From NCBI GenBank assembly GCA_028289545.1, contig JANQPG010000109.1:36513-100512 (forward strand): a stretch of DNA of 64,000 nucleotides, in the 5' to 3' direction. Positions 3,037-31,457 of this stretch are shown here, in pieces. Made by a program: the position numbers and the translations under genes. The DNA comes from Woeseiaceae bacterium. Lineage in GTDB: Bacteria > Pseudomonadota > Gammaproteobacteria > Steroidobacterales > Woeseiaceae. Under the pieces are notes generated by a model that saw only the letters and a program-made list of their open reading frames with translations, did no database searches and was not told the origin of the DNA. Numbering within the stretch: the first letter of the stretch is position 1; the number at the start of each line of letters is the position of its first letter.

Positions 3037-3086
3037 GACTTGAGGAATCCGTTGTTTTTGGTGTGGTGAGGCGGCGAACACTAACG

Positions 3087-3107
3087 GAAATGATAATGAT
3101 TCGCAAT
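3087..3107. promoter_or_regulatory. Putative Fur box upstream of the TBDR
   Basis: Sequence gaaatgataatgattcgcaat matches GATAAT-repeat Fur-box pattern; lies about 50 bp upstream of the start codon. Confidence 0.65.
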
Positions 3108-3192
3108 ACGGGTTTTCCACTATACCCGACGGACAAACCCTCTAACGCACGCCCCGTAAGGCGTGTAAGGTTTGACCGGTGCGCTCAGCGCG

Positions 3193-12688: not shown

Positions 12689-14998
12689 TCAGAATCGCCA
12701 GCGCAACGTCGCGCGTGCAAGCCTCGGCACGCCGGGCGACACATGCGTCACCGCTGTCCTCGATCCTCCAAAGAAGAAGAAATACTCATCGTCCAGCAGG
12801 TTCGTAATCGAAACATCGACCGTAAGGTTGTCGTTCGCCGGTAAAGCAAAGGTCGCCGAAGCCCCAAGCAGGTCGTAGCTACCCGTCTTAACCGAGTTGG
12901 ACAGATCCACGTAGTAGTCGTCGTACCACTCGTAGGTCATGCGGGCGGTGACCCAATTGGTCAGTTCGTGCTCCAACTCAACGTAGAACATGTGCTCGGG
13001 GACACCGGTCGGCGTCACGCCGGAGAAGTCCACGTCCGGCGCGCCGAAACTGCCGGCAATGATGAGTTCGTCCCATTCCGGATCCACGTAGGTGTACGTG
13101 AAAACGCCGCTGGTGCGTTCTGTCGGTCGGAACCGTAGCGCTGCCTCCAGCCCACGACTGGAGTACTTTTGGCCGGTTGTCGCCAGTGTCGGCGGCCCGG
13201 TCAGGTCCGGGTTCGACACAAAAATCCGGCGATCTGTCTGTTCGAGGTAGAAGACCGCTGTCTCCCATTCGACATGGCCATTGGCCGTGCGCCCCTTCCA
13301 GCCGAGCTCATAGCTGTCGATAGTTGTCGGCTTTTCTTCTCGTGCGTAGCGATCCGGCTCCCATTGCCATACCGGTCCGAAATTCGAGTTGAAGCCGCGA
13401 CCGTAGCTGCCGTAGAGGATGCCGTTGTCGTAGCTGTAACTCAGCGATGCTTTCGGCGTAACGGCATCGGCATCGCCCGTAGCCTGCTGGTCGACCGGTT
13501 GGGTGCCAATAACGCTGAAGTCGACGTCGCGATCGAACTCGTCGTAACGCAGCCCCAGGGTCAAGGTCCAGTTTTTGGTCAGCGCTATTTCATCCTGAAT
13601 GAATGCGCCGTAAAACGTGTTGGTTGTGTCACCAACCGTGCGCAGTTCGCCGCGGACAAAACACGTGTTGTCGGGCGTATCGTTAACAACCTCCCCCGTC
13701 GAGTAGTCGATCAGAATCGCGTAAAAGCGAAAACCGCATTCACCGGTAAAGAACGGATCGATTTCGCCGCTCCAGCGATCTTGCTCGTCGAGCTCCGTCC
13801 GTTCGCCGCTCAGGCCGGCTATGATCGAGTGACGGCCCGCTGTCCAGCTTGCGGTCGCTTCGCCGAACAAGACCTGTGCCTCATTCACTGACGCAAATCC
13901 GTTGACACCCATGATCGTGTTTTCAGGATCAAACTCGAAGAAGTCGTAGAAATTGAGAGAGGCGTCCGAATCGAATTGTCGTGCCTGGCCGGTGAACTGC
14001 AGCGTAAGTGATTCACTGACCCGATGTTCATACTTCACGGCACCAATCATTCCGTCGACGTCATTGTATGTAGGCAGCCAGCCGAGAAAGGTTTCTGCGC
14101 CGCCGCCGACGTCGACGATCGTCCCGTCCGCGAGCGTCGGAATCGCGCCCGGTACTTCAGCCTTGCGCTCGAAGTAAGTCAGGTACCCGTTCAGCGTGCC
14201 ACGATCGCCGACTGGAACCGTTCCCTTGAAAAAAATACTGGCCAATTCGCGTTGGCTGTGCTCTCTCCAACCTTCGAAATCTTCGTAGGTTGCGCTCAGC
14301 GAAATACCTGCGCCGCCGTCGAAGCTTCGATCCAGTTGCGCATCAAACCGCGTAAAACCCTCGTTGCCTACGCCTACCGCAACCTCCCCCCGATCTGAGG
14401 TGATCGACCGCGTTCGGTAATTGACGGCGCCGGCAATACCGCCGCGGCCGTACAGTGCCGATACCGGCCCGCGAACAATTTCTATCGTATCGATTGCAGC
14501 ATAGGGAACTTCATAGAGCAGGACCTCCTCGTCGGGGCCGACGAACGGTACGCCGTCGACCAGGGCGAGAAACGTGTCGTTGCCGTGATTTCCGGTAATA
14601 CCGCGAATCGCTATGAACGGAAATTCCTCATTGTCGCCTTCGTTACGACGAAAGAAGACGCCGGGCACGCCACGAAATTCGTCGGTGCCGACGACAAAGC
14701 CTTTCTTACGCAGCTCGGCGGTTGATTGGACCGTTATCGAAGCGGCGGTTTCTAGCAGCGGTTTTCCGCGGCGGGTAGCCGTAACCACTATTTCATCGAG
14801 TTCGGTCGCTTCAGCGGCATTCGACGATTGCGCGAGCGCAGCATCAAGCGGCAGCATCGCCGTAATGGCGGCGGCTGCGACGCCGCCAAACATTTGGCTG
14901 GAGTTTTTCACTTTTGGACTCCCAAGACAGGTGCATGGACCAGGCGGACCACTCCTCGAAAGGGTGTAGCCCGCCGTCGTATCGGTACGTCTTGGCAA
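12689..14998 (-). CDS. TonB-dependent receptor
   Basis: TonB box DEIVVTATRR; plug VRGPVSALYGRGGIAGAVNYRTR; C-terminal aromatic LRWRF. Exact start uncertain. Confidence 0.93.
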   Translation of the reverse strand: MPRRTDTTAGYTLSRSGPPGPCTCLGSPKVKNSSQMFGGVAAAAITAMLPLDAALAQSSNAAEATELDEIVVTATRRGKPLLETAASITVQSTAELRKKGFVVGTDEFRGVPGVFFRRNEGDNEEFPFIAIRGITGNHGNDTFLALVDGVPFVGPDEEVLLYEVPYAAIDTIEIVRGPVSALYGRGGIAGAVNYRTRSITSDRGEVAVGVGNEGFTRFDAQLDRSFDGGAGISLSATYEDFEGWREHSQRELASIFFKGTVPVGDRGTLNGYLTYFERKAEVPGAIPTLADGTIVDVGGGAETFLGWLPTYNDVDGMIGAVKYEHRVSESLTLQFTGQARQFDSDASLNFYDFFEFDPENTIMGVNGFASVNEAQVLFGEATASWTAGRHSIIAGLSGERTELDEQDRWSGEIDPFFTGECGFRFYAILIDYSTGEVVNDTPDNTCFVRGELRTVGDTTNTFYGAFIQDEIALTKNWTLTLGLRYDEFDRDVDFSVIGTQPVDQQATGDADAVTPKASLSYSYDNGILYGSYGRGFNSNFGPVWQWEPDRYAREEKPTTIDSYELGWKGRTANGHVEWETAVFYLEQTDRRIFVSNPDLTGPPTLATTGQKYSSRGLEAALRFRPTERTSGVFTYTYVDPEWDELIIAGSFGAPDVDFSGVTPTGVPEHMFYVELEHELTNWVTARMTYEWYDDYYVDLSNSVKTGSYDLLGASATFALPANDNLTVDVSITNLLDDEYFFFFGGSRTAVTHVSPGVPRLARATLRWRF

Positions 14999-15331
14999 TC
15001 AGGGGGAAGCGCGGGCGCTGAAGTGCGGAAACGGCTCAGTCGATACGACTGTGGCGCCGGCCGTTTCCGACAGCGCCGCCGGGCGGATGGAGCGAGTTCG
15101 CGCAGAGTCGGCAAGGACGGTATCGCCGGAATCCAGCTGCTGGCAGATCCCGCAAGCATGAGAGGAGTCGTCCAGTGCATGGTCGTGGCAGTGCTCGGCG
15201 ATCGCGAGTTGCGCCCACAAAAGCGCTACGAGAATCGCCGATACGACCGTAGATTCCGAGGGTCTTGATTTGTGGAAGCCCTTAGACAATTTCGCGGCGA
15301 CGATGATATTCGAGAGAGCACCCGGAGACAT
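14999..15331 (-). CDS. Small exported His/Cys-rich protein, DUF2946-like
   Basis: ALLWAQLAIAEHCHDHALDDSSHACGICQQ; directly upstream of the TBDR. Confidence 0.6.
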   Translation of the reverse strand: MSPGALSNIIVAAKLSKGFHKSRPSESTVVSAILVALLWAQLAIAEHCHDHALDDSSHACGICQQLDSGDTVLADSARTRSIRPAALSETAGATVVSTEPFPHFSARASP

Positions 15332-15334
15332 GAA

Positions 15335-15351
15335 TGTTACGTTATAACGTT
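15335..15351. promoter_or_regulatory. Zur-like operator (site 1)
   Basis: TGTTACGTTATAACGTT, containing the perfect 12-bp palindrome ACGTTATAACGT; 16/17 identical to the site at 28521-28537. Confidence 0.6.
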
Positions 15352-15525
15352 TTTGGTTGATAGATCTATTCGGGATATACGAGTCGGTCCACCGGCGGTC
15401 TGGCCACCCTCTGCCCCCTCGACTCAGACCGTCTATAATGCGCTCGCCGAACGGCGGGAGGCATCAATTCCCGCCTTCCCTTTGACTAGACGCGCATCAG
15501 CGCGGAAGGACACCTGGCAAATATC

Positions 15526-16665
15526 GTGGATATCAGCGACGGCTTTGACGCAGGCAATATCGAGGTTCTGGACCTCAACGACCCCAGCGCGATTCAGCTC
15601 CGCATTCGCAAGGACGAAGGCGAGGATCACTACCAGTGGTTCCACTTCCGCGTGACCGGCGCACGTGGCGTGGACCTGAAGCTCGCGATCGTCAACGCGG
15701 GTGAAGCCAGCTACACCAAAGGCTGGGAGAACTACCGCGCCTGCGTGAGCTACGATCGCAGGACCTGGCGACGGGTGAGTTCAACCCGCTACGAGGATGG
15801 AACGCTGACCATTGCGTACACGCCCGAACAGGACGCGGTCTGGTTTGCCTACTTTGCTCCTTACTCGATCGAGCGGCATCACGATCTCATCGCGCGCTGT
15901 CTGGAGTCGTCGCTGGTGCGGCACGAGCTGCTCGGCCGTACCCTCGACGGGCAGGATCTCGACCTGCTCCGCGTGACCGAGGCTGGCGGCGAGCCGACCG
16001 AGGGTAAGAAACAGTGCTGGATTTTCGCCCGTCAACACCCCGGCGAGAGCATGGCTGAACACCTCGTGGACGGGCTGCTCGCGCGCCTGCTCGATTCATC
16101 CGATCCCACGTCGCGCGCGCTGCTGAACAAGGCCGATTTCTGGATCGTGCCCAACATGAATCCCGACGGCAGCCGGCGTGGTCATCTCCGGAACAATGCG
16201 GCCGGCGCCAATCTGAACCGTGAGTGGCTCGAGCCGACGATGGCTCGCAGTCCCGAGGTCTACCTGGCCCGCCAGAAAATGCAGGCCACCGGCCTCGATT
16301 TTGCCCTCGACGTCCACGGCGACGAGGCCCTGCCCTACAACTTCATCGCGGGGCCCGAAGGTGTCGAATCGGTCACGGAAGAGACGCGCGCGCTGCAGGC
16401 CGAGTTCGAAGCCGAACTCGCAGCGGCGAACCCGGACTTTCAGACCGAACATGGCTACCCCAAGGCCGAGATGGGAAAGGCGAACATGACAATGGCGACC
16501 AACTGGCTCGCTGATCACTTTGGTGCGCTGGCAATGACGCTGGAGATGCCCTTCAAGGACAATGCAAACCTGCCCGACGCGGAGTTCGGCTGGTCACCCG
16601 CGCGCTGTGAGCGGCTCGGTGAAGGGATCCTGACTGCGCTCTTGGGTGTGGTCGACCGGCTCTAG
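15526..16665 (+). CDS. M14-family zinc carboxypeptidase (cytosolic carboxypeptidase-like)
   Basis: RQHPGESMAEHLVDGLL, IVPNMNPDGSRRGHLRNNAAGANLNREW, DVHGDE. Confidence 0.92.
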   Translation: MDISDGFDAGNIEVLDLNDPSAIQLRIRKDEGEDHYQWFHFRVTGARGVDLKLAIVNAGEASYTKGWENYRACVSYDRRTWRRVSSTRYEDGTLTIAYTPEQDAVWFAYFAPYSIERHHDLIARCLESSLVRHELLGRTLDGQDLDLLRVTEAGGEPTEGKKQCWIFARQHPGESMAEHLVDGLLARLLDSSDPTSRALLNKADFWIVPNMNPDGSRRGHLRNNAAGANLNREWLEPTMARSPEVYLARQKMQATGLDFALDVHGDEALPYNFIAGPEGVESVTEETRALQAEFEAELAAANPDFQTEHGYPKAEMGKANMTMATNWLADHFGALAMTLEMPFKDNANLPDAEFGWSPARCERLGEGILTALLGVVDRL

Positions 16666-16667
16666 CG

Positions 16668-17174
16668 GTGTTCCCCGACTCACAGAATGGGGTCGCAAAA
16701 AAGATAAGAGTCACCAAACGAAAAGGAGCGCCTTACGTGAATACGGTTGTACGAGTTTTTGCCTTGCTCGGTATCCTCACCCTGCCCATCGCCGCGGTTG
16801 CTAGTGAAGATTCGAGCGACCTCATCCAAATGGGTGCCTACGTTGCCGCGGACGACATGGCGGCGTCCGAAACCTTCTACAAAACGCTGTTCGACCGCGA
16901 CCCCATCATCAAGCTTGATAATTTCATCGCATTTGACGTCGCCGGCGGCATATTCGCCATCGCCAGGCGCAAAGTTTACGCTCCCGGCTCTGTTCCCGGC
17001 ACAGGCGCAGTCCCGTATATCCACTCGACGGACCTCGCGGCGGTTCAGGCTCGCATTAAGAGAGCCACCGGCAGGGACGCACCAGAGATCATCGTTGAGC
17101 CGGGTATTCTCCTTCTCAAGATCACCGATCCAAACGGCCAACTGGTCGAATTCTTCTCGCTGACAGGAAGCTAG
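16668..17174 (+). CDS. Exported VOC/glyoxalase-fold protein
   Basis: Signal peptide then AAYVAADDMAASETFYKTLF-type VOC start and ITDPNGQLVEFFSL end; true start probably the internal GTG near 16737. Confidence 0.7.
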   Translation: MFPDSQNGVAKKIRVTKRKGAPYVNTVVRVFALLGILTLPIAAVASEDSSDLIQMGAYVAADDMAASETFYKTLFDRDPIIKLDNFIAFDVAGGIFAIARRKVYAPGSVPGTGAVPYIHSTDLAAVQARIKRATGRDAPEIIVEPGILLLKITDPNGQLVEFFSLTGS

Positions 17175-17235
17175 GGTCTTTTCATGAAAGCTAGTGGGCC
17201 GCTATCTACCCTATCGGCCAGCGGCAGTCCCGCCA

Positions 17236-19518
17236 TCACTTCGCTCCTTCGTTGACCGTCGTGTCGTAGCGTACGCCGTCCGGAACCGGAACCGCCTGCT
17301 GTACGCTTACGCCGTAGCTGCCCTTTGTTCGACGACTCGCATCGACGGCAACAAAAGCCGTGTATGCGGACATCAGCTGGTATTCGAGTGCTGTATCGCG
17401 GATCGTCGCCGCGAGCTCGCCATACGGGTCCTGCTGCCAGGTCTGTTTGTCGGCGTAGTCTGCAATCTTGAGGCGTGCCCAGAGCTTGGCGAGGTTTGCA
17501 TCTCCATCCTGGCGCCCACTAACGACGAACTGCCGCGTCTCACCTCCCGCGAGCCCCGATACGCTCACCGAGTCCACAATCCCTTGGTAAGTACCTGTGA
17601 CGAACACCGGCCGACCGACGAACAGATCGGGCAGCGTCGAAGGATACATGGACGACACCTGCATTCTGCCCCAGTCGATCGCAAGATCGGTCATTGCGGG
17701 ATGGCTGATGCGCTCGAAGAATGCGTCCATGATCTTCTTTCCCGAGTCGTCGAGGCCGAGATAGGCGACGGCGCCGCGGCCTTCTTTGGCCATGCGCTCC
17801 ATCAGGAAGCGATTTACCGAGTTACCAACGCCGAAGCTGAATATGCGTGCGTCGCCAACCAGGTCGTGTACGGCGCCAATAACGTCGGTCTCGTTGCCTA
17901 TATAGCCGTCGGTGAGAAAGGTCACGAACCGCAGTCGCTCAGGATCGTGCGGAAACTGCAGGGCCGCGCGCACGCCTTCGATCATCATCGTGCCGCCGTC
18001 ACCCGACAGACGCTGCACATACTCGCGCGCTGCCGCAATATTCTTCCGCGTCGCCGGCAACGGCGCATCGCCAAGCTGACTGGCATTGGATGAAAAACGG
18101 ATGATCTGGAATGTGTCACCTGGCTCGAGATTGTCGAGTGCGGCGAGGATCGCAGCCTTCGCCTGTTGCATTGGCCTGCCTCGCATCGACCCGGAACAGT
18201 CGAGGACAAACACCATCTCCATCGGCCTGCGCTCCAGGTTGCCGAGCGTTTCCGGCGGGTAGAGCATCATCGAGAAGTAGCTCTGGCCTGTCCGCGAGTC
18301 CTCCCAAGTCATCAGGTTCGAACGAAGCTCACTACCCGCGACTTTGAAATCGAGTACGAAGTCGCGATTCGGAATCACGGCTTCGTCGGCCAGCGATACT
18401 TCGACGATGCTCTCCGACACGCGTTCGCTAACGATGTCGTGCGTCGCGCGCAGACCCTCGATTTCAACGCCGGCGTCGATACGGAGATCGATGCTGATGT
18501 CGTGGCCCGAGCGCTCCTTGGGATCAAGATAGGTAACTGTAGTGCCAGTAGCGCGGGGTGTTACCCCGCGCGGTAATGCCCGAACGGGGTCCTTGCTGCC
18601 AGGTGGATTGAAGCGCGGCCCGACAACGGTCGGAAACACGAACGAGTACCAGCCGTCGACATACGTCAGCGTGTGAAAATAGCGGATGTCGACATCGATA
18701 GCCTTGCCCGGCTCAAGGTTGGCCACCTTCTGCTGGAAGATGTTCGGCCTCTGTTGCAGAAGCAGGCTCGCCTGGTAACCCTGGCGACGGGCTTCGTTGT
18801 ATATCGCCTTAGCTTCTTCCTTCTCTCGCAGGATGCCGCGAATGCGTCGCTCACCGATGATCATGACGAACTCGCTGACCGCGGCTTTCTCGGGTAGCGG
18901 GAATACGTACACGGCCTCGATCTTGGTCGAATATGGATTGGAGAAACTCTGCCGCACGTTCACCGAACCGATGTAGCCGTCGACGCTTGCCGTCACGGCT
19001 GTATGTTCGAGCGGCAAGGGAACACGCACGGGCGGCAGCCCCGGACCGTCGCTAACCAACGTCAGCATCGAGCCCGTGCCGGGCCGGTCGTCGTCGACCG
19101 TCGTTTCATCGGAGCGCGCAATGACCCAGACTTCCTCGCCGGCGTTGACGCGAGACAAGGTCTGGTCGGTGCCCTGCTGCCTCTCGAGCCAGCGTTGTCG
19201 ATCACTCTCAAACCGTCTCGCCAGCATGGCGTGGCTGCGCGCACGGAGCTGCCTGAGCTCGGCATCTTCGCTTTGCTCGCGGAGCCGGGAACCTCTTGCT
19301 GCCGTAACAACAACCTCCTCTATCTGCATGTCGCCTTCGCGCGCCGCCCCTGAAGCCCGCCCGTCGCCCGTGGGAAGCGGCGTGCCCTGCGGTTCGGGCG
19401 AGGTTGCAGCGCCGGGCTCCCTTGAGGCGTCGTAGTAACCGGATGCACAGGCGACGATAGTCATCGACGCGATAGTCACGAGCACTATTTTTGCGTGCTT
19501 CCAATGCGTGGCTTTCAT
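17236..19518 (-). CDS. VIT- and vWA-domain protein
   Basis: VIT region (VNVRQSFSNPYSTKIEAVYVFPLPEKAAVSEFVM) and vWA MIDAS VFVLDCSGSMRGRPM. Confidence 0.9.
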   Translation of the reverse strand: MKATHWKHAKIVLVTIASMTIVACASGYYDASREPGAATSPEPQGTPLPTGDGRASGAAREGDMQIEEVVVTAARGSRLREQSEDAELRQLRARSHAMLARRFESDRQRWLERQQGTDQTLSRVNAGEEVWVIARSDETTVDDDRPGTGSMLTLVSDGPGLPPVRVPLPLEHTAVTASVDGYIGSVNVRQSFSNPYSTKIEAVYVFPLPEKAAVSEFVMIIGERRIRGILREKEEAKAIYNEARRQGYQASLLLQQRPNIFQQKVANLEPGKAIDVDIRYFHTLTYVDGWYSFVFPTVVGPRFNPPGSKDPVRALPRGVTPRATGTTVTYLDPKERSGHDISIDLRIDAGVEIEGLRATHDIVSERVSESIVEVSLADEAVIPNRDFVLDFKVAGSELRSNLMTWEDSRTGQSYFSMMLYPPETLGNLERRPMEMVFVLDCSGSMRGRPMQQAKAAILAALDNLEPGDTFQIIRFSSNASQLGDAPLPATRKNIAAAREYVQRLSGDGGTMMIEGVRAALQFPHDPERLRFVTFLTDGYIGNETDVIGAVHDLVGDARIFSFGVGNSVNRFLMERMAKEGRGAVAYLGLDDSGKKIMDAFFERISHPAMTDLAIDWGRMQVSSMYPSTLPDLFVGRPVFVTGTYQGIVDSVSVSGLAGGETRQFVVSGRQDGDANLAKLWARLKIADYADKQTWQQDPYGELAATIRDTALEYQLMSAYTAFVAVDASRRTKGSYGVSVQQAVPVPDGVRYDTTVNEGAK

Positions 19519-19943
19519 GTTGTACTCCTCGTTTCGGACTCCAGCGTGATCGTCGCATCCAGCGGACTGCCATCGCGGGTGGTTGCTGTCTTAAGTGTCA
19601 GTTCGAATTCAGGTTCGCCGTCGAGCATCAGGTGCAGTGTCGCAACACGCACACGGCCGCTCGGGAGGTTGGCCTCAAGCGAGAAGTCGGCGACGATGAC
19701 GCGCTCCGCGCGACCCGCTTCGATCGCGTCACGGTCGTAGTAAGGCACGTCGCCGAAAGCGACGGAATCGCCGTTCTCGACGCCGACAATTGTTGTTACG
19801 CCGTTAGCGTCCGCAAGTTCAAACTGCCAGGCGGCAACCGGTTCGTCCACGCTTAGGTACACGTCGACGGCAACAAAACGCGGCGCGGCATGACCGACGA
19901 CCGGCAGCAGGACAAAAAGAACAAGCAGCAGTCCACGCATCAC
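19515..19943 (-). CDS. Small exported cohesin-like protein
   Basis: Signal peptide; VAVDVYLSVDEPVAAWQFELADANGVTTIVGVENGD...YYDRDAI...LPSGRVRVATLHLML; 4-bp overlaps with both neighbours. Confidence 0.55.
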   Translation of the reverse strand: MMRGLLLVLFVLLPVVGHAAPRFVAVDVYLSVDEPVAAWQFELADANGVTTIVGVENGDSVAFGDVPYYDRDAIEAGRAERVIVADFSLEANLPSGRVRVATLHLMLDGEPEFELTLKTATTRDGSPLDATITLESETRSTT

Positions 19944-20326
19944 GAGTCGTCTCCGTTGAGGCTTACGATGCTGGCCGCGAATGCATCGAGATCGTCCTGC
20001 GTCAGCTCATGCCCGTCGCGCGCCAATGCGAGCACGTCGGCGATATCGACCTGCCCCGAGCCGTCTACGTCGGTAAAGAGGTCGCTGCGGGTCGGCGCGG
20101 GATCATAGTTCGAGATCGAGAGGACAATGCCGACCATCGCGACGGCCGCGACGGCTGCCCAGGCGCGGCGCCTGGGTGCCGGCTTGCGAGTCGAGAAGTG
20201 CTCTGCGGCCGTCGCCGCGAGCTCGCGATCGACGCGTCGTGTGATTACGTCGGCCGGTAGCTCCCGGCTCTTGAGCGCGGCAACGAGCTCGGCGGGCAAA
20301 TCGTCAATGTCGTCGTGGTCTGTCAT
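19940..20326 (-). CDS. Single-TM protein with cytoplasmic N-terminus and C-terminal dockerin-like segment (possible anti-sigma)
   Basis: TM AAVAAVAMVGIVLSI, then LFTDVDGSGQVDIADVLALAR (dockerin/EF-hand loop). Confidence 0.65.
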   Translation of the reverse strand: MTDHDDIDDLPAELVAALKSRELPADVITRRVDRELAATAAEHFSTRKPAPRRRAWAAVAAVAMVGIVLSISNYDPAPTRSDLFTDVDGSGQVDIADVLALARDGHELTQDDLDAFAASIVSLNGDDS

Positions 20327-20368
20327 TGCTGGTCCTCGGAGATGTAACGCGGCAGGCGCCCGAAAGGT

Positions 20369-20929
20369 TCATTTTTCGAAAAAATGCTTTGCTTTCGGTG
20401 AGTTACGCAGCTGGGTCACGGCGGCATTGAGGCGCGACTTGACTGTCCCAACCGGCAGATCGAGGGCGTCGGCAATATCGGCGATCGGCAGGTCGAGAAC
20501 GTAGCGCAGGGTAATGACCTCTCGGCGCTCCCGGGAGAGCTCGGTGATCAGTATGTCAATGTCGTCGCTTGAGTCGGGTGCGAGGAACGCCAGCTCATCG
20601 GGTTCCGTTGCATCATCGGGTCTCGTTCGCTGTGCCTTCCTGAGCTGTGAAATCGCGGCATTGCGTGCGATTGGATACAGGTAGCTCGTGAGCCTGGCTG
20701 TCAGCTTGAGCCCTTCACCGGGCGGCGGAAACTGCACGAGCAGGGTCGTAAACGTCTCTTGCAGTGCGTCGAGGGCGAGGGCGTGGTCATGGACGACGGC
20801 AAGCGCGACCCGCAACACGAAGGTCTTGTGCCGCGTGTACAAGACTTCGAAGGCGCGTTTTGCCGACGCGGCATCCGCCGTGTTGCAGAGTTCGACGAGT
20901 TCCAGGTCGCTGAGTCGCTCGTAGCGCAT
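20369..20929 (-). CDS. ECF-type RNA polymerase sigma factor
   Basis: Region 2 DALQETFTTLLVQF and region 4 LDLPIADIADALDLPVGTVKSRLNAAVTQLR; start at MRYERLSD. Confidence 0.9.
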   Translation of the reverse strand: MRYERLSDLELVELCNTADAASAKRAFEVLYTRHKTFVLRVALAVVHDHALALDALQETFTTLLVQFPPPGEGLKLTARLTSYLYPIARNAAISQLRKAQRTRPDDATEPDELAFLAPDSSDDIDILITELSRERREVITLRYVLDLPIADIADALDLPVGTVKSRLNAAVTQLRNSPKAKHFFEK

Positions 20930-21132
20930 AGACAGCAGTGTAGCTTGAGACCGATAACTATTCGCGTCACGGCCTTTGCCGGCCGCCACCCCCGGCAGAA
21001 ACTCCTATCTCACCTGCAAATTTAGAGTGACCTCTGGGAGGGCGTCCGCGGAAGAGCCGGTAGCCGCCTTGGGTCTGAAGCCATCATTGCACTCCAAACC
21101 CGGCGAACTGCTGTTTTTAGTCAGTCGCAGCT

Positions 21133-21438
21133 TCAACGAGCCAGCCTTCTTTGTGCGTTGTCTATGTCCCCGGCGATTTGATCGAGCGTTTTCTCGAAAT
21201 ACTCGGGGTGGTCCTCTTTTGATTCGGCCAGGCGGCGCGCAAGCAACTTCGAGTGTTCAAGAACGTTAACACCCGCGGAAACTTCTGCACCTAAAACTTC
21301 CGAGACAAGATCGAGCCCGAGATACTCCTGTGCCGCATGCTTGAACTCTGCAGTGCTCATAACTCTGCCCGGAATATCGATTCCGTATTTAGCAAGTTCG
21401 TCCGCCTGAACAAAAGACCGGCTTGCTTCACCTATCAA
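21133..21438 (-). CDS. Hypothetical protein
   Basis: 101-aa ORF with plausible composition; no recognised family. Confidence 0.35.
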   Translation of the reverse strand: MIGEASRSFVQADELAKYGIDIPGRVMSTAEFKHAAQEYLGLDLVSEVLGAEVSAGVNVLEHSKLLARRLAESKEDHPEYFEKTLDQIAGDIDNAQRRLAR

Positions 21439-21722
21439 GTTGTGCGGATCTCAGTGGCCTACTGGAAGACCCACCAAACTCAATGTACTTGCGATCTTTT
21501 CGATAAGGTTCAACTGACTTGCTCAGGCCGAAAACTTACGATTTGGGCGAACGTGGCGCGTCGGGCGGTTACCCTCCACCGCCGCCGGGTGGGTGATTTT
21601 ACGGCTCAATCTTGCCACCGATATTGTGAATTTCTTCGCGCGCCGGGACCTAGCATAACGGATACACGGAGACCGCATGGACAAACTGCTTGAAGCCGGA
21701 AGCGGACTCTCGATTCGGCAAA

Positions 21723-22577
21723 TTAGCGAGCCGGTGCCGAAGGTGTAAGTTTGGGGAGCGTCAGACTGTAGTGATAGCCATCCCGTTTCGGGTCGAGCTC
21801 GCTCAGTTCGGCACTCGATAGACTCTCGCACTGAACAGGCAGTGTCGTTGGACCGCATGTTCCATCGCGACAGCTCCAGCTGGCGCCGCCGCACGCTGTC
21901 ACGTTCAGGCTCGTCAGGGGTACATCGATCACGAGGCTCGCCGTCGGGCGCGGAGGTTCGACAGGCATACCGTCCGACAGCAACATGCCGGTGAAGGCCG
22001 TGACGCGGGCATGAAAGTTCCCGAGCAGGACCAAGACAGGTCCCTTGTCCAGAGCCGAGCCAAGATCGCCGATGCGGTCAGCCATGCCCTGGCGCCTGTC
22101 GCTGCCCTCGGAATAAAAGTCAACGTCGTCCACCGTCACGGCGTAAACCCTTCCACTTTGGGATCGGACTTCCCTGACCGCGTCAAGGAGAGCAAGCATA
22201 GCCATGCTGCGACGACCATCGCTCTCATCTTCGGGTATCTGCCAGAAATCCCCTGCAAGCAGATTGGCGACGGCGCGACGCGAGCCATCCGATCCCAAGA
22301 AGCTGTCGATTCGTTGCTGCTCCTGCCTTGGTATCTCAAGTGCAATGGTCACAGGTCCTTCAGCTGCAAGCCTTGCGAGTAGCGATGCAACCAGTCTTGG
22401 CGTCTCCCGGTTTCCGTGAAGCTCGCCGATAATCAGCAAAGATTGCCCATCGTAGACTTCCAAAACTCTATCTGTTGCGTCGCTGAGCCAGGTTTCGGGA
22501 CCTCCTTTCGGGGACGAAGCCGCGGAGTGCGGCGCGAGAAGGAAACTGCATGATGCTATGAGGATTATGAATCGCAT
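21723..22577 (-). CDS. ChaN/TIKI-like exported protein
   Basis: Signal peptide; LLIIGELHGNRETPRLVASLL, IALEIPRQEQQRID. Confidence 0.65.
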   Translation of the reverse strand: MRFIILIASCSFLLAPHSAASSPKGGPETWLSDATDRVLEVYDGQSLLIIGELHGNRETPRLVASLLARLAAEGPVTIALEIPRQEQQRIDSFLGSDGSRRAVANLLAGDFWQIPEDESDGRRSMAMLALLDAVREVRSQSGRVYAVTVDDVDFYSEGSDRRQGMADRIGDLGSALDKGPVLVLLGNFHARVTAFTGMLLSDGMPVEPPRPTASLVIDVPLTSLNVTACGGASWSCRDGTCGPTTLPVQCESLSSAELSELDPKRDGYHYSLTLPKLTPSAPAR

Positions 22578-22696
22578 CGTGACTCAGCAGAGCTTGTCTG
22601 CATTGGAAGCACTGGTTCAAGAGCCGAAATTATAGCTGCAACCTGGCCAGCGCCATGCTGTCGGAGGCGAACACCGGCCGCAGGTGGAACAACACA

Positions 22697-23530
22697 CTAT
22701 GAGCACTGCAGGACAAGCCAGACGTCGGAGAAGTCACATTTCGCGGCATCCTGTTCCTTGACCCAGAAGTACAGATAGCCCAGGTCACCCCACATCACTT
22801 CAAGGTCGTCGTCGGATGCGAACTGCAACAATAGTCGCCAGTCCTTTTTGCCCGCTGCAAGCCGCTTGCCTTCCTTGCTGCGATAACCGGTGCCGTCACC
22901 GCAATACACGCCATTCGATGCAAGCTGCGCCTCCAATTCCATACCGTCGCCTTGGACCGGCCTCGGGTATCCACCAACCTGGTGTTGGAGTTCCTCGTCA
23001 TCTTCCTCGACTGGGCCGTCAAAGTACCGGTCAACTTCCAGGTCGTTGAGGTCGATTCCCAGGTCTCCAAATCTCTCCATGTCGGGCAGGCTGTCGGTTG
23101 TCACCAACTCAACGAAAAACTGCGGCAGAACAGGACGTTTCGCCGTTTCTTGCTGGCCGATCTGGTCGACGTGAATAACGGACCACCCGCCCCGGTCCTT
23201 CGGATCAAACCCCCATGGCTGATTCTCCATGTCGTAGAAGAAAAGTAGTTTCCCGTGACCGGGCAACCAGGGGACAGCTTTTGTGGCTGCAATCTCTTCG
23301 AGATCGAGGGAGGCAAGAAACGCGAGGTCGTTCCCGTCTTTGGTCGGCCACTCCACATGCAGAGGCAGGTACGGGTCGCCGCCGAGGTAGGACTTTGTCT
23401 GAGCATCCGTCTTTTGCAACATGAGCGCGGGAATCGAATGCGATTTGACGTCGGCTAAAATCTCCTCGAAGGAACGCCCGGTGATCGCTTTTGATTCGCG
23501 GCGCCTGAGGAAGTCGAAAATCTTTGCCAC
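22697..23530 (-). CDS. DUF1963 (YwqG-like) protein
   Basis: SYLGGDPYLPLHVEWPTKDGNDLAFLASLDLEEIA...LLFFYDMENQPWGFDPKDRGGWSVIHVD. Confidence 0.8.
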   Translation of the reverse strand: MAKIFDFLRRRESKAITGRSFEEILADVKSHSIPALMLQKTDAQTKSYLGGDPYLPLHVEWPTKDGNDLAFLASLDLEEIAATKAVPWLPGHGKLLFFYDMENQPWGFDPKDRGGWSVIHVDQIGQQETAKRPVLPQFFVELVTTDSLPDMERFGDLGIDLNDLEVDRYFDGPVEEDDEELQHQVGGYPRPVQGDGMELEAQLASNGVYCGDGTGYRSKEGKRLAAGKKDWRLLLQFASDDDLEVMWGDLGYLYFWVKEQDAAKCDFSDVWLVLQCS

Positions 23531-23663
23531 GGAGAACTCCAGCTGAATTCATCAGAAGGAAAAGCGCTGAGTCGAGGGTTGGCGAGCGACAGACTTGGGT
23601 CGACGCCCAAGCTTCATTGTAACCCGGATGCAGCTGTTAAACGGCTGCTTGCAAGTTCACCCG

Positions 23664-24116
23664 TCACTCCTCGTACGGACAATGGTCCTGTGCTTCCTGT
23701 CGGCTCATGGATTTCGACGCCTCGAGCACACAACAGTCAAACGACTTGGTACGAACGGTGTGCAGCACATCGCCGGCCGGGGTGCGAACGGAGGCATAGT
23801 GTTCATGGCGCGCTTCCCACACCTTCTCGATGCCCGAGACCTGGCAAACCGCTTCGGTAACGGCGCCAAAGACAGTATCCGCAGTCAGCGCCTGTGACGC
23901 ATGCAGACTCGCATCGCTCGGCACATAGGTCACGATAACCTGGTTCTCGTACACGGTCAGGTCGTTCCATTCGAAGGATCCCGCTATCTTCGGCAGCTCG
24001 GCCTGCCGGGCCGCTACCCAGGCGTCGATCGATGCTGTCCGGTCGGATTCGCCTCCCGAACACGCCACTAGCGTGAGCATGACAAAAGGCACCAGGGTGC
24101 TCCAGAGTTTTTGCAT
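23664..24116 (-). CDS. Hypothetical lipoprotein
   Basis: MLTLVACSGG lipobox; small exported protein. Confidence 0.55.
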   Translation of the reverse strand: MQKLWSTLVPFVMLTLVACSGGESDRTASIDAWVAARQAELPKIAGSFEWNDLTVYENQVIVTYVPSDASLHASQALTADTVFGAVTEAVCQVSGIEKVWEARHEHYASVRTPAGDVLHTVRTKSFDCCVLEASKSMSRQEAQDHCPYEE

Positions 24117-24439
24117 GAGTCTCGTTCCTGTCTACGCCCCGAAGAAAAACGCTGCGCTTCAAGGGATACCATAGCGCAGTCTCTGCAGCGGATACCGTTG
24201 CCAGTGTCACAAAAGCGGTTCGTTACCAGGTGACAGAAGCCCGAGAGGGCTCGGCAGAGGTCCTTTGCGCCGGTAGAGAACTCCGTTCCAGTTCGAGAAA
24301 AGGGCCAGTAGGCTATGACCGCAGCCGGTCAGAAGCAGAAACTCTGTTCCGGCCTCTAGACTAAGGCCACCAGCGGTCGTTCGGCCCGGACTTCCAGGCT
24401 TGTAGTTTTTGTCAGAGTCTGGGGAGTAACCGTAAGTGG

Positions 24440-24679
24440 CTAGTCGCCCGAACCGGTTGAGACGTCCGTCGGTGACTCGGAAATTTCACCTGCAATATCG
24501 TCTATGGCCTCCAGGTTGGGATGTGGACGCCCATCCGAGTAGTGGCTGTACGCTTGGTTGCGCTCAATGAATTCATCATGAGACAGCTTGTCTCCGCGTT
24601 TTTGCCGCCTTCGCCAGGGAAACACGACAACGAGGATCGCTATCACAGCAAGCAAAACAAGGAAAATCCTCGGGTCCAT
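24440..24679 (-). CDS. Small single-TM hypothetical protein
   Basis: MDPRIFLVLLAVIAILVVVFPWRRRQKRGDKLSHDEFIERN. Confidence 0.5.
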   Translation of the reverse strand: MDPRIFLVLLAVIAILVVVFPWRRRQKRGDKLSHDEFIERNQAYSHYSDGRPHPNLEAIDDIAGEISESPTDVSTGSGD

Positions 24680-24844
24680 GTCGGTTGCCTCATCAAACTC
24701 GATGGCTTGACTGGGTAAGGCCTCGTGCCAGTGTAGTCCACCACCTGCCCTGTTTCATTTCTGTTTCTTTTCCTTTCACCCCGGTCGGTACTTGACGACG
24801 CGGTTCAATAAGCGTCAGGAATTGCGACAAAAAGAGCCACTCCA

Positions 24845-26260
24845 CTAGGTTCCACAGAACGTGCGGGTGACTCGCTCGCGAACCCTCGGTGCTTTAGCGT
24901 AGTCCGAGAGGTCCGGTTGTTCTGCGTACGGTTTTGCCAGCGCGGTATTCATATCGTTGAATACCGTGAGATCGCCTTCAACCGCTTCGGCAATCGCCTG
25001 CTCGACGCGGTGATTTCGCGGAATGAAGAGCGGATTTACCGAGTTCATGAAAGCCGAAATCTCGGCGGGTGTCTTGCCCTGGTCAGCCGTGCGCTGCCGC
25101 CATTTGGTCTCGAAGGGTCCGAACCGGCTGTCATCAATAGCGTCGACTCGTGACGCCAGTTCGCGAAAGCTCAGGGTATAGTCGAGCCCGTTGTCGTCTA
25201 GATACTTCAACCATTCGGCAATGATTCCGCTATCCGTTTCCTGAACGTCGTACAACCCCAGTTTTGGCCCCATCAGTGCAAGGTAGTGAGCCCCGTATCG
25301 ATCCGGGAAGCTGGCCAAGACCGCCTCAAGTTCATCTTTTTCGGCACCAATGGCGAGCAACGTAACGGCGAGACGGGCAAGATTCCATTGCGCAATGGCT
25401 GGCTGATTCGCGTACGCGTACCGACCATGGGTATCGATGGAACTGAACACCTTGTCGTACCGGAATTCATCCATGTACGCGGCGGGGCCGTAGTCGATGG
25501 TCTCACCGGAAATTGTCGTATTGTCGGTGTTCATGACGCCATGAATGAAACCAATCGACATCCAGTGTGCGATCAATTCGGCCTGACGTTCCGCTACACG
25601 CCGAAAAAACCCGACATACGGAGACTTCTCGTCCGCCACTTCCGGATAGTGACGGGCGATCGCGTAGTCGGCGAGCGTTCTGAGCGATTCCACGTCATTT
25701 TGTTCGGCAAAATACTCGAACGTGCCAACGCGCAGATGACTGGCGGCCACTCGCGTAAACACGGCTCCCGGCAAGGGAGACTCCCTGTAAACCGTTTCCC
25801 CGGTTCCAACGGCCGCAAGCGCCCTGGTGGTCGGTACGCCGAGATGATGCATCGCCTCACTCAGAATGTACTCGCGCAACACCGGGCCCAACCAGGACTT
25901 GCCGTCGCCTCCCCGCGAGAACGGCGTACGGCCAGAGCCTTTGAGCTGGATATCAAAGCGATTGCCAGCGTCGGTGACTATCTCGCCCAGCAAGGCAGCG
26001 CGACCATCGCCGAGCTGGGGCACGAAGTATCCGAACTGGTGGCCAGCATATGCCATGGAGATCGGTTGGCTTCCTTCCACCGCTACGGATCCGCTGAAAA
26101 CGCTGGCGAGCTGCGCCTCATCATAGCCCGACGCGGCAAGACCCAGCTCGAGCGCGAGCTCTTGATTCCAGGCAAGGAGAGCCGGTGCCGGCACCTCGTT
26201 GGGACTGACCGTTGCGTAGAACGCCTTGGGCAAGGCAGCGTAGCTGTTTTCGAAGTTCAT
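24845..26260 (-). CDS. selO: SelO family protein adenylyltransferase
   Basis: MNFENSYAALPKAFYATVSPNEVPAPALLAWN, GDGRAALLGEI, GRTPFSRGGDGK, GVMNTDN, C-terminal RTFCGT. Confidence 0.95.
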   Translation of the reverse strand: MNFENSYAALPKAFYATVSPNEVPAPALLAWNQELALELGLAASGYDEAQLASVFSGSVAVEGSQPISMAYAGHQFGYFVPQLGDGRAALLGEIVTDAGNRFDIQLKGSGRTPFSRGGDGKSWLGPVLREYILSEAMHHLGVPTTRALAAVGTGETVYRESPLPGAVFTRVAASHLRVGTFEYFAEQNDVESLRTLADYAIARHYPEVADEKSPYVGFFRRVAERQAELIAHWMSIGFIHGVMNTDNTTISGETIDYGPAAYMDEFRYDKVFSSIDTHGRYAYANQPAIAQWNLARLAVTLLAIGAEKDELEAVLASFPDRYGAHYLALMGPKLGLYDVQETDSGIIAEWLKYLDDNGLDYTLSFRELASRVDAIDDSRFGPFETKWRQRTADQGKTPAEISAFMNSVNPLFIPRNHRVEQAIAEAVEGDLTVFNDMNTALAKPYAEQPDLSDYAKAPRVRERVTRTFCGT

Positions 26261-26332
26261 ACTCGAGCCGATGGAATCAACTGTTTGGGTTCACCCGATC
26301 TGCGGTACGCCAACAATTTCTCCAGTTACTCA

Positions 26333-26728
26333 CTACGAGAATAGCCTGGGCAGCAGAATCAGTGCGATCATAACCAATCCAAAACCAACGGCCCAATTTA
26401 GCAAAGTGTCATACAGCTGCCTCGGGTTTTCCGACACCTCACTCGTAAGGCGATAGAACTCATCCACATCGACCCTATTCTCTACTTCATAGTTCGGGTC
26501 CAGAATGAGCTTCTCGGCTTCGGCCTCCTGTTCGTCGAGATACACCCACAAACTCGGTTCGGTCATCAAGAAAGGCGAGACCATCCTCGCAGTGTTTTCA
26601 CCCTTGATCACTGCGGGTATCCCGTTCGCCTCCAGCAAGTCTTTGAGCAAATGGAGATGAACTATGTCCGTACTCTTGGTTAAGAACTTCATGTGATGCT
26701 CTGGACTGGGATAGCCAGCCTTTGCCAA
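26333..26728 (-). CDS. DUF2007-domain membrane protein
   Basis: DIVHLHLLKDLLEANGIPAVIKGEN...LWVYLDEQEAEAEKLI, then one C-terminal TM. Confidence 0.75.
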   Translation of the reverse strand: MAKAGYPSPEHHMKFLTKSTDIVHLHLLKDLLEANGIPAVIKGENTARMVSPFLMTEPSLWVYLDEQEAEAEKLILDPNYEVENRVDVDEFYRLTSEVSENPRQLYDTLLNWAVGFGLVMIALILLPRLFS

Positions 26729-26810
26729 TGGATCTGGATACTGAGGATCCGCACAGAGTCAATACCCGCTCTTCATTGTAACTAGAAAGCAGCGATTTAG
26801 CCTGTGCAGT

Positions 26811-28163
26811 TCAGTCGCCAGCGTTTCTGATACTCACACTGCACACATCGTTTGGATTTTCCGTAAGACACTCGAAACCGATCGTCTTGGCTGATGGATC
26901 GTATTCAATGGGCTCTCCGGTGTACGGGTTCCTGTGTGTCGATGACCGGAGAACATTTTCTACACTGGACTCGTCGCTTTCTTCGATTTCGACCTGCAGC
27001 AGCACGAGGCTGACGCGCCCGTTGACGTCATGCATGCGACTTATGCGGTCCTGCGGCAGTTGCTGGGACGACAACCGCTTGAGAGCCAACTTGCCGCCCA
27101 GGTTATACAGCGGAGGAGGAAACAGGCGGAACTCGTAGGTCAGCCTGTCAAAACCTCGTTGTGCGTAGAATTCCTCTGCGGGAAGCGTAGCGCGAACCCG
27201 CAATGGTATCACCGCCCTGGCGTAGTACTCGTTGAGTGTTGCCCGTTCCTGGAAAAAGGGCCGCAATGCCCGGCCATCGTCGCCCAGAATGTCGATGACC
27301 GAAGTATTGTTGAGCGCCATAATCCGTAGCTCCGCGAGAAAGGATTCTCCAATATCCAGCTCGTCATCGGTCAATGGATACAGAGTATTCCGAATCGATT
27401 GCAATTCACTCTCACTCAGATCACGTAGCCTGATCAACGCTGACAAGAATTCCATGCTGTTTCGAAACCCAGCGAGTGCAACCATCTTGGCAATCATTGT
27501 CTGGCCATCGCGGAGCATAGTCCGCCAGAAACGCATATCGTCACCAACCTTGGCGATATAGTCCTCCACGGTGTCCTGCCGGTAGCTGATCGCCAGTCGC
27601 ATACGCGCAACCTGCATGAGCAATGCATAGGTCGGTATCAGCGTAGTTACATCGACCTCCTCGCTCTCGAGAAACCGAGGCGCCCGCAGGATCTCGTCGT
27701 AGCGTTTGAGAAGCACGAGCAGGCGAGGATTATCCGCGTTGAATTGCTCGAGTTCGTTTATGAGCGGTCCAGCGCAATCCACCGAAACGCGCGAATTGCA
27801 ATAGAGGCTTTGTATTTGCGTCCTCCAGTCGTCATCGTTACCCGACCGACCGAGCAGATCGTCCATTTCTTCCTCGGTTAGGGTGGCCTTCTCGCCCCGG
27901 CGATACCGCTCGCGCATCGTTTGAACAATCGCCTGACCAACAACTAGCTGATCCTTGTCGGCGGCGGCTGTAAAGCCATGAAGTAGCGGGAAGGCGTTGT
28001 CATTCATCGACACGGGATGCGGCGAGTCGGGGGAAGCCAGGTCCGGATGCAGCGTTTCGTCAAACCAGGATAGATTGATAAACAGGGTTACCGCGAGCAG
28101 AGCAGCTACAAGTAGCGACGCCCAAACTACTGATCTTCTGATGCTTCCTCGAATGCCCATCAA
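26811..28163 (-). CDS. Hypothetical membrane-anchored protein
   Basis: 450-aa ORF, N-terminal TM; no recognised family. Confidence 0.6.
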   Translation of the reverse strand: MMGIRGSIRRSVVWASLLVAALLAVTLFINLSWFDETLHPDLASPDSPHPVSMNDNAFPLLHGFTAAADKDQLVVGQAIVQTMRERYRRGEKATLTEEEMDDLLGRSGNDDDWRTQIQSLYCNSRVSVDCAGPLINELEQFNADNPRLLVLLKRYDEILRAPRFLESEEVDVTTLIPTYALLMQVARMRLAISYRQDTVEDYIAKVGDDMRFWRTMLRDGQTMIAKMVALAGFRNSMEFLSALIRLRDLSESELQSIRNTLYPLTDDELDIGESFLAELRIMALNNTSVIDILGDDGRALRPFFQERATLNEYYARAVIPLRVRATLPAEEFYAQRGFDRLTYEFRLFPPPLYNLGGKLALKRLSSQQLPQDRISRMHDVNGRVSLVLLQVEIEESDESSVENVLRSSTHRNPYTGEPIEYDPSAKTIGFECLTENPNDVCSVSIRNAGD

Positions 28164-28520
28164 GGATTCTCAATATGCCTGATTGATAAAGAGCCATTGT
28201 ATCCGGTAGCACTTGGCGTAATCGCGGGTTCCGGCAACTTGCCGGTCGACAACTTGGTTCGACCGACGGCGCCTGCAGCGAAGTACTGCCGGCACTCGGC
28301 CTCTAACCGACGTTACGCCGACGCCCCCTTTCGAGGCCATTGTCGCCTGTCGTTGATGGTTGTATTCGAAACGGTCCAGCAAAATCCCAGGATATCCGCC
28401 CTATAAGAATCGCCCTCAATCACCCGTTTTTACGCCAATAAGCTGTTGATGTTGATCGGTTGACACCCGCCGGCACTTTCACGGCGACTTCGGCGCCTCA
28501 AAAATACTCCAACACAGACT

Positions 28521-28537
28521 TGTTATGTTATAACGTT
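28521..28537. promoter_or_regulatory. Zur-like operator (site 2)
   Basis: TGTTATGTTATAACGTT, about 60 bp upstream of a TBDR start; one mismatch to the site at 15335-15351. Confidence 0.65.
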
Positions 28538-28599: not shown

Positions 28600-30696
28600 A
28601 TGAACATCAAACTTTGTGCGCCACTGTTAGTGGGCGCATCATCCATCATCCTTTGGGCTAACACCGTTTCAGCGCAATCTACCGAAGCCGAGATCTCGGA
28701 GATTGACAACATTACGGTTACCGGCACACGGCGGGCTTATCAGGGGGATTTCGACCCCTTGGAAACGCCGCAAGCCGAGTTGAGGATCGATGCCGAGACC
28801 TTGCGCAACGCGGGCTCTATCGACCTCGTTCAAGCTCTGGATTTGTCGGCCTCCGTAGCCAGACAGAATAACTTCGGCGGTCTCTGGAACAGCTTCGCCA
28901 TTCGTGGTTTTGTCGGCGACGAAAACCTGCCGAGTAACTACCTGGTGAACGGCTTTAACGCCGGGCGCGGCTTTGGCGGCTCCAGGGACCTGTCCGGTAT
29001 CGAGTCTGTTGAAGTACTAAAAGGTCCTCGCGCCGCTTTGTACGGGCGAGGTGAGCCTGGCGGTACAGTGAACCTGGTCACCAAACGACCCACCTTTGAA
29101 ACCGCGGGAGAATTCAGCATCTCCGCAGGCAGCTTTAGCACTTACCGTGCTGATTTTGACTACACCACTCCGCTGTCCGATGCCGTCGCAATACGGTTTG
29201 TTGGCGCCTATGAGGATGCTGAAAGCTTCAGGGATACCGTGGAAACGGAAAAGCTGTTGTTTAGCCCGTCGATCGCCTGGCGAGTCAGTGATGAAAGCCT
29301 GTTTATCTATGAAATGGAATACAGTGATCAGGAGACACCTTTTGATCGCGGCGTGATCGCTATCAATGACGAGTTGGGCCTTATCCCTGAGAGTCGCTTC
29401 CTGGGTGAACCCAGTTACGGCCCGATAGAAACGGGCGTCCTCGGACATCAGGTGGAATTCCAGCATGATTTCAACGCCGACTGGAGCGCCCTGGTTGGTT
29501 TCAACTATCGCGAAACCGAACTCGACGGGCTTGCGTCAGAGAATGGTTTTGGCGCCCCGGACGTCGACGGCAACTTTGGCCGCTTTAGCCGTGACCGAGA
29601 CTACGATGCGACCTATCAGGTGTTTCGAGCGGAGTTGAGCGGCAGTTTCAACACGGGAGGAATTCAGCATCGCGTCATCGTCGGCCTCGATATCGATGAG
29701 TTCGAAAACGATCAGATTGCGTTTCGAGACAGGTCGACGGATCAGAGCATCAATATCTTTAACCCGGTCTACGGAAACTCGCCGGTATCCGGTCTTGCGC
29801 TGGCTCCGCAGATCGACAGAGTGGAAACGCAGGAATCCGTCGGCTTGTACGTTCAAAATCAGATCAGCATAACGGACAAGCTGGATATTCGACTGGGCGC
29901 CCGATTTGATGACTATGACCAGACGCTGAACAATCGCCTGTCAGGCAGCATTTCCGACTATTCTGAAACCCAGGTGAGCCCTCAATTTGGCGTGGTTTAC
30001 CAGGCGACGGATAACGTCTCTCTTTACGCGGTGTACGGCGAAAACTTCCGCCCTCTGTCTGGCGCGACGGATGAGAACGGTTTGGATCCCAATATCTCGG
30101 AGTCTACAGAAGTGGGAGTGAAGCTTGCGCTGAACGATGGTGCACTGACGGGAACGTTCGCGATTTTTGATCTTGAGCACTCAAATATTGCGACGTTTGA
30201 TGCCGACTTTAATCCCACAGCCGTCGGTGAAGCAGGAAGCCAGGGCTTTGAGTTGGACCTTGTAGGAAGCCTCACTGACACCTTGAGCCTGTGGTTTTCC
30301 TATGCCTACGTGGATGCTGAAACCAAGAACGACTATACGGATTTTATTTCCTTCAACTTCATTCCGGCCGGCTCGGATCTCCTGAACATCGCTGAACATC
30401 AGTTAAGCCTGCAACTCGCCCAGGAAACTCAACTGGCTGGCAGGGCATTGACTCTGATTGGAGGCTTGACGTATGTCGATGACAGGAGTGGAGAATTTGG
30501 TGACCCAACCTTCAGGCTGCCAAGCTACACCACGGTCCGAGTCGCCGCGAACTATGAAATATCGGACTCCTGGGGATTGCGTGCGGAAGTAAACAACCTG
30601 TTTGACGAGGAGTATTACACCAACTCCTATGCCGACGTTTGGGTACAACCGGGTACGCCGCAAAACTTCCGCGTGTCGGCAGACTTCCGATTCTAA
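28600..30696 (+). CDS. TonB-dependent receptor
   Basis: Signal peptide, DNITVTGTRRAY TonB box, LKGPRAALYGRGEPGGTVNLVTKRP, C-terminal FRVSADFRF. Confidence 0.94.
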   Translation: MNIKLCAPLLVGASSIILWANTVSAQSTEAEISEIDNITVTGTRRAYQGDFDPLETPQAELRIDAETLRNAGSIDLVQALDLSASVARQNNFGGLWNSFAIRGFVGDENLPSNYLVNGFNAGRGFGGSRDLSGIESVEVLKGPRAALYGRGEPGGTVNLVTKRPTFETAGEFSISAGSFSTYRADFDYTTPLSDAVAIRFVGAYEDAESFRDTVETEKLLFSPSIAWRVSDESLFIYEMEYSDQETPFDRGVIAINDELGLIPESRFLGEPSYGPIETGVLGHQVEFQHDFNADWSALVGFNYRETELDGLASENGFGAPDVDGNFGRFSRDRDYDATYQVFRAELSGSFNTGGIQHRVIVGLDIDEFENDQIAFRDRSTDQSINIFNPVYGNSPVSGLALAPQIDRVETQESVGLYVQNQISITDKLDIRLGARFDDYDQTLNNRLSGSISDYSETQVSPQFGVVYQATDNVSLYAVYGENFRPLSGATDENGLDPNISESTEVGVKLALNDGALTGTFAIFDLEHSNIATFDADFNPTAVGEAGSQGFELDLVGSLTDTLSLWFSYAYVDAETKNDYTDFISFNFIPAGSDLLNIAEHQLSLQLAQETQLAGRALTLIGGLTYVDDRSGEFGDPTFRLPSYTTVRVAANYEISDSWGLRAEVNNLFDEEYYTNSYADVWVQPGTPQNFRVSADFRF

Positions 30697-30710
30697 AGGA
30701 GGCTTCAAGA

Positions 30711-31457
30711 GTGAAAACGGATAGCTCTGCCAAACTGCAAGCCGATCAGCTGCACATCTACCGCTCGGGCAAGGAAGTCCTGAGCGGTATCTCCTTTACT
30801 GTGGAAGGCAGCGAAGTTTACGCGCTTCTCGGCGGTAACGGAGCGGGCAAGTCGACCACGCTGCTGAGTTTCCTCGGATTTCTGGCACCTTCGGGTGGCA
30901 GTCTCTCCGTTGACGGTGTGGACGTTGGCACTGATCTCAAAGCGGTGCGCGAAGCCATTGCCTACCTCCCGGAATCGGCATCTCTTTATGAACACCTGAA
31001 TGCGTATGAGAACCTCCGCTACTTTTTGCAGCTTGCGGGTGTGCCAGACGACAAGGCCGCGATCGAGGCCGCATTGGATCGCGTATCCCTCGATCCGGAA
31101 TCGAGAGGACGCAAGCTCAAGGACTATTCCAAAGGCATGCGTCAAAAAGTGGCTATCGCACTGGCTATTCTCAGAGACACCGACATCTTACTGCTTGACG
31201 AGCCAACTTCAGGGCTTGATCCCAATGCCATCGATGAGTTTCATGATCTGGTTCGCGGCCTTGCCGATTCCGGTAAAACCATTCTGATGGTGACACACGA
31301 TGTTTACGGTGCGTGTCAGGTCGCCGACCGGATTGGCCTGCTTCGCGGCGGCAAGCTTGTTGGGGAGTTCTCTGCCCCCGAAGGTGGCCGCATCGAGACC
31401 GAAACCGTTCATCGCGCTTTTTCAAATCGCACAACCAGGAAAGAGCAAGCAGCATGA
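30711..31457 (+). CDS. ABC-2-type transporter ATPase
   Basis: GTG start after AAAGGAGG; LGGNGAGKSTT, YSKGMRQKVAIALAIL, LLLDEPTSGLDP. Confidence 0.9.
   Translation: MKTDSSAKLQADQLHIYRSGKEVLSGISFTVEGSEVYALLGGNGAGKSTTLLSFLGFLAPSGGSLSVDGVDVGTDLKAVREAIAYLPESASLYEHLNAYENLRYFLQLAGVPDDKAAIEAALDRVSLDPESRGRKLKDYSKGMRQKVAIALAILRDTDILLLDEPTSGLDPNAIDEFHDLVRGLADSGKTILMVTHDVYGACQVADRIGLLRGGKLVGEFSAPEGGRIETETVHRAFSNRTTRKEQAA

Follow-up and report, generated by a model that had tools for sequence, protein, structure and literature searches.

Zur boxes of Proteobacteria follow a GTTA-N5-TAAC palindrome rule (PMC4176598). In Caulobacter crescentus, Zur represses znuK, encoding a TonB-dependent receptor (TBDR), and znuGHI, encoding the ATPase and two permeases of an ABC-2-type ATP-binding cassette (ABC) transporter (CC1517-CC1520), through the site GATGTTATATCATAACAAT, as demonstrated by microarray, lacZ fusions and electrophoretic mobility shift assays, and cells starved of zinc depend on both ZnuK and ZnuL to grow (Mazzon et al.; PMC4176598). 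In Pseudomonas aeruginosa, the Zur-regulated PA2911-PA2914 genes combine a TBDR with a siderophore/B12-type ABC importer, and their reported cargo is a complex of pyochelin and cobalt (PMC11481552). A homologue of the first system and an operon resembling the second in architecture, each preceded by a predicted Zur operator, were found in a 64,000-nucleotide stretch of a Woeseiaceae bacterium genome (GCA_028289545.1, contig JANQPG010000109.1, positions 36,513 to 100,512; hereafter the window).

The two window sites, TGTTACGTTATAACGTT (15335-15351, + strand) and TGTTATGTTATAACGTT (28521-28537, + strand), differed only by C/T at position 6 and had GTTATAAC in common. They were the only matches in the window when up to 3 mismatches were allowed, while shuffled windows gave a mean of 0.08 matches and never two (0/100 shuffles). 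Both matched GTTAY-NNN-RTAAC and thus conformed to the proteobacterial palindrome, as the original prediction had proposed from a GTTAT...ATAAC-type core, although the operator is best described, and is invariant in this genome, as the even-centred 12-bp palindrome AYGTTRTAACRT. The positions given in that prediction were exact for both sites, as was their placement directly upstream of a leftward cluster and about 60 bp upstream of a rightward one: site 1 stops 3 bp short of the ATG (15331) of a 110-aa leftward open reading frame (ORF), and 62 bp separate the end of site 2 from the TBDR ATG at 28600. A sigma-70 promoter scan at both operators returned no convincing promoter on the relevant strands. 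The features concerned are the following:

15335..15351, strand unassigned: predicted Zur operator 1, 12-bp core ACGTTATAACGT at 15339-15350
14999..15331, minus strand: small Cys/His-rich ORF, 110 aa, DUF2946-like by eye, without Pfam match
12689..14998, minus strand: TBDR (plug and barrel; Pfam), with orthologues in three other genomes
11387..12598, minus strand: periplasmic binding protein, Peripla_BP_2 (Pfam)
10329..11390, minus strand: FecCD permease (Pfam)
9544..10581, minus strand: FecE-type ABC ATPase (Pfam), true start probably near 10329 (ATG of MLELKALTSGYH)
28521..28537, strand unassigned: predicted Zur operator 2, 12-bp core ATGTTATAACGT at 28525-28536
28600..30696, plus strand: TBDR, ZnuK homologue (34% full-length identity with the receptor next to the published Caulobacter site)
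30639..31457, plus strand: ABC ATPase, ZnuG homologue (47%)
31313..32890, plus strand: ABC-2/DUF3526 permease, ZnuH homologue (33-40%), true start probably near 31448 (MSATLTIAKEEW)
32887..34137, plus strand: DUF3526 permease, ZnuI homologue (41%)
3086..3110, strand unassigned: Fur-like box upstream of the leftward TBDR gene at 916-3036, a contrast outside the Zur set

The complete assembly (5.07 Mb, 110 contigs, 100% complete by its label; the window lies in contig C46) was searched for AYGTTRTAACRT, a pattern derived by adding one-mismatch sites to the initial set and aligning them. Exact matches occurred at 11 places and matches to the reversed pattern at none, against 0.9 to 1.3 places expected under Markov models of order 0 to 3. 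All 11 adjoined metal-uptake or zinc-starvation genes, with the two window loci in C46 and the others as follows:

C2:98976: upstream of a zur-type gene, which heads an operon with a His-rich COG0523 GTPase gene, cysS and folE2; a flavin oxidoreductase gene diverges on the other side
C5: about 50 bp upstream of a ZigA-like COG0523 GTPase gene
C63, first site: MerC, ABC ATPase and His-rich MacB-FtsX permease genes, then a second zur-type gene
C63, second site: TBDR/FecBCD cluster
C63, third site: about 400 bp upstream of a gene for a His/Glu-rich ZnuD-like receptor
C66: TBDR with two DUF3526 permeases and an ATPase
C42 and C12: one lone receptor each
C88 (L045:4045-5921): perfect 12-mer, flanked by a FecI-type sigma gene on one side and a binding protein/FecCD cluster on the other

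The motif scan that the original prediction had called for at zinc promoters thus recovered a zur gene and a ZigA-like GTPase gene, the other seven non-window sites all being of metal-uptake type; no non-zinc ribosomal protein paralogue was noticed next to any of the 11, the L31/L36 genes themselves not having been searched for. A third DUF3526 pair, which lacks a receptor (C48), served as a negative control and was devoid of the 12-mer. An earlier odd-centred model, GTTAYNNNRTAAC, matched six genome places against five for its reverse, which is weak alone; all six carried GTT or AAC in the middle, and this model was superseded by the even-centred 12-mer.

For the rightward operon, the published Caulobacter 19-mer Zur site served as a probe against 299 genomes, all from the order to which a Hyphomonas match belongs. 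Two genomes matched, and in these the site lay between a receptor gene and genes for an ATPase and two permeases homologous to those of the window (receptor 34%, E 1.7e-103 or better; ATPase 47%; permeases 33-41%); the link from these genomes to Caulobacter rests on the published 19-mer and on the order. Judged by these protein comparisons, each protein of the rightward operon (28600-34137) has its homologue in Caulobacter znuK-znuGHI, and Pfam assigned the operon as TBDR, ATPase, DUF3526 and DUF3526. It also shares a predicted GTTAT...ATAAC Zur site at the operon promoter, so that both the gene set and the site of a ZnuK-ZnuGHI system are present. Two differences were noted: Caulobacter znuK and znuGHI diverge around one site, whereas the four genes here run in the same direction with the receptor first, and the palindrome here is even-centred (GTTATAAC), unlike that of Caulobacter. 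Two Hyphomonas-type genomes carried the strict 12-mer exactly once each, at the operon of this type.

Conservation of the site was followed across 77 orthologous loci of Gamma-, Alpha- and Betaproteobacteria and a few others. In 20 of them, the receptor promoter carried a site above 14 bits that also exceeded every control window of its own locus. In an orthologue of another genus with 85% identity, the intergenic sequence had changed while TTGTTATGATATAACATTG was kept. A scan restricted to receptor promoters had suggested that Alteromonadales orthologues are without a site, which proved wrong: in the Alteromonadales-type gene order (ABC-DUF3526-DUF3526-receptor) the receptor is last, and a site above 14 bits was found at the ABC start in 11/20 loci, with related weaker sites (TGATATAGTATAACAT) in Pseudoalteromonas. 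The operator therefore follows the operon promoter and not the receptor gene.

The leftward operon, read from Pfam as small ORF, TBDR, Peripla_BP_2, FecCD and ATPase (the small ORF being without a match), resembles PA2911-PA2914 in architecture and regulation, since a TBDR and a siderophore-type ABC importer are joined in one predicted Zur-controlled operon. Unlike PA2911-PA2914, it starts with the small Cys/His-rich ORF. Similar ORFs precede orthologous TBDRs, and the ORF was kept in two of the three leftward-receptor orthologues; comparison with these suggests that its translation may in fact begin at an internal TTG near 15289. The DUF2946 likeness originally proposed for it holds by eye (HCHDH...CxxC) and found no counterpart in Pfam DUF2946, even at an E-value of 10.

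Taken together, both window sites are very probably operators of the zinc uptake repressor Zur, placing the two operons in a single regulon, with 11 sites in all and zur among its members. We infer binding by this organism's Zur, a response to zinc, and transport of zinc, possibly in chelated form. A zinc-bound Zur dimer on AYGTTRTAACRT would block transcription; under zinc shortage, Zur would be released and both operons expressed, yielding an outer-membrane receptor with a FecBCD-type importer for a metal-chelator complex from the leftward operon, and a ZnuK-ZnuGHI-type receptor with an ABC-2 transporter from the rightward one. Of the original proposal of two uptake systems under one regulator, for zinc rather than iron, the regulatory half is strongly supported by the motif at zur, the orthologue sites and the Caulobacter homology, while zinc as the transported substrate is only likely, given the PA2911-PA2914 precedent.

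Several observations weigh against this assignment. The 12-mer was defined after the sites had been seen, which makes the count of 11 somewhat optimistic (the gene contexts were not selected for), and matches with up to two mismatches were not enriched (66, compared to 179 in the reversed control). A one-mismatch site, GTTACGTTATTAC, at C66:103610 (L044:4611) had no recognised zinc-type neighbour. Among the three leftward-receptor orthologues found in the order, the site was strong in one (at -77), weak in another (GTTATGCTATCAC) and absent from the third. Finally, among relatives of the rightward operon, a betaproteobacterial clade with 18 members (100% support in the SH-like approximate likelihood ratio test, SH-aLRT) had nine loci that carried, instead of a Zur box, a GCGAAnnCGTTATCATT-type sequence at about -90 to -170, in front of the same receptor/ABC/DUF3526 operon (L108-L142). 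This sequence looks like a Fur box of AATGATAAnnnATTCGCATT form, which remains a lead; as a scan with the Escherichia coli Fur consensus did not clearly separate it from controls, its naming goes no further than Fur-like, a term based on its recurring form. A single change of box is the most economical interpretation of the midpoint-rooted tree.

A cargo other than zinc is a real possibility, albeit short of probable: Zur would control both operons, while the systems would carry another metal or metal-chelator that spares zinc, cobalt for example, or the ABC-2 part would export or recycle the chelator. For PA2911-PA2914, import of pyochelin-cobalt is reported despite regulation by Zur, and PA4063-PA4066 is a Zur-regulated MacB exporter (PMC11481552). 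One DUF3526 permease matches ABC-2 families and not binding-protein-dependent importers, and the Fur-type switch in one clade suggests that the cargo metal is not fixed. Against this stands the requirement of Caulobacter ZnuK and ZnuL for zinc-starved growth (PMC4176598).

Searches of the genome for ZnuA (PF01297) and ZIP (PF02535) found neither, with positive controls matched in other genomes; the searches did not extend to NRAMP or other routes. Provided that the assembly is complete, zinc has to be taken up along another path, and the Zur-controlled ABC systems would be the obvious candidates for it. More tentatively, and with some doubt, the ZnuK-ZnuGHI-type cassette may handle a chelator without being tied to one metal; it would have been under Zur ancestrally and rewired once to a Fur-type box in the betaproteobacterial clade, and such cassettes together with FecBCD systems would take over the whole zinc supply where ZnuA and ZIP are lacking. 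With a shift from a Zur to a Fur-like box inside a single operon family, the ZnuGHI cargo becomes testable by comparing the two lineages.

The identity of the regulator was considered among four FUR-family genes: Fur (C63), an Irr-like gene (C34) and two Zur-type genes by NCBIfam, located at L011:8440-8946 (C2) and L012:6798-7325 (C63), each close to a predicted Zur site. For both Zur-type proteins the best NCBIfam match was Zur (117 and 103 bits), below its equivalog cut-off, so that their naming rests on best match and context; the closest PDB entries to both were 7dh7 and E. coli Zur 4mtd. It is unlikely that the C63 protein regulates the sites instead of the C2 copy, or that the two share them out. 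Both genes are close to a site and the C63 protein is Zur-like throughout, differing in PLTAYRHLDFL for PPTVYRALDFL in C2; however, the C2 copy, which retains the C-terminal Cys pairs as well as the PPTVYRALDFL stretch of 4mtd, is nearer to characterised Zur proteins, and its gene stands directly behind a site.

TBDR/FecBCD clusters are usually iron systems, and zur/folE2 operons and ZigA-like GTPases belong to zinc starvation. That both window sites are Fur boxes, and both operons dedicated to iron-siderophore uptake, would agree with the first of these and with the Fur-like box of the betaproteobacterial clade. It is nonetheless highly improbable, as the 12-mer is found at the zur/folE2 operon and at the ZigA-like GTPase gene, and the genome has a separate, clear Fur together with a different box: the Fur-like sequence originally noted upstream of the 916-3036 TBDR was located within 3086-3110, where it agrees with the E. 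coli Fur consensus at 14/19 positions, a score equalled but not exceeded elsewhere in the window. Two box types therefore coexist in the window. As for mere chance, short AT-rich palindromes are common and relaxed matches were not enriched, but its probability is negligible, as the genome scan already contradicts it, with 11 sites for about one expected, all in one functional class and kept in other genera, and with no shuffled window giving two.

The circuit type is known, and the predicted set forms a clean, broadly expected zinc-starvation regulon; this receptor-rich example of it is new, a modest novelty. For a poorly studied gammaproteobacterium, it represents a predicted Zur regulon that is close to complete and puts seven receptor genes or operons under a single repressor. 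The dominance of receptors without ZnuA or ZIP is unusual, as are the two Zur paralogues in one genome and the Fur-like box on the same operon in one betaproteobacterial clade. DUF3526 ABC transporters also gain a regulatory context; in the literature search, DUF3526 was unmentioned and znuGHI rarely mentioned, and nothing relevant was found on zinc in Woeseia.

Among the remaining sites, that of C88 suggests Zur control of a sigma-factor-linked uptake system. The locus at the first C63 site resembles, by description, P. aeruginosa PA4063-PA4066 and Vibrio cholerae ZrgABC in having a MacB/FtsX-type transporter beside a Zur site; unlike these, it begins with a MerC family gene and is followed by the second zur gene, and its permease (L012:8226-9812) contains a long, nearly regular His/Asp-rich repeat, HDHGADDDHGHDHDAHEHDEHDQD. 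The flavin-dependent oxidoreductase of about 514 aa (L011:9088-10632, C2), divergent from the zur operon with the site between them, had only a distant ArsO-like match and may be zinc-regulated.

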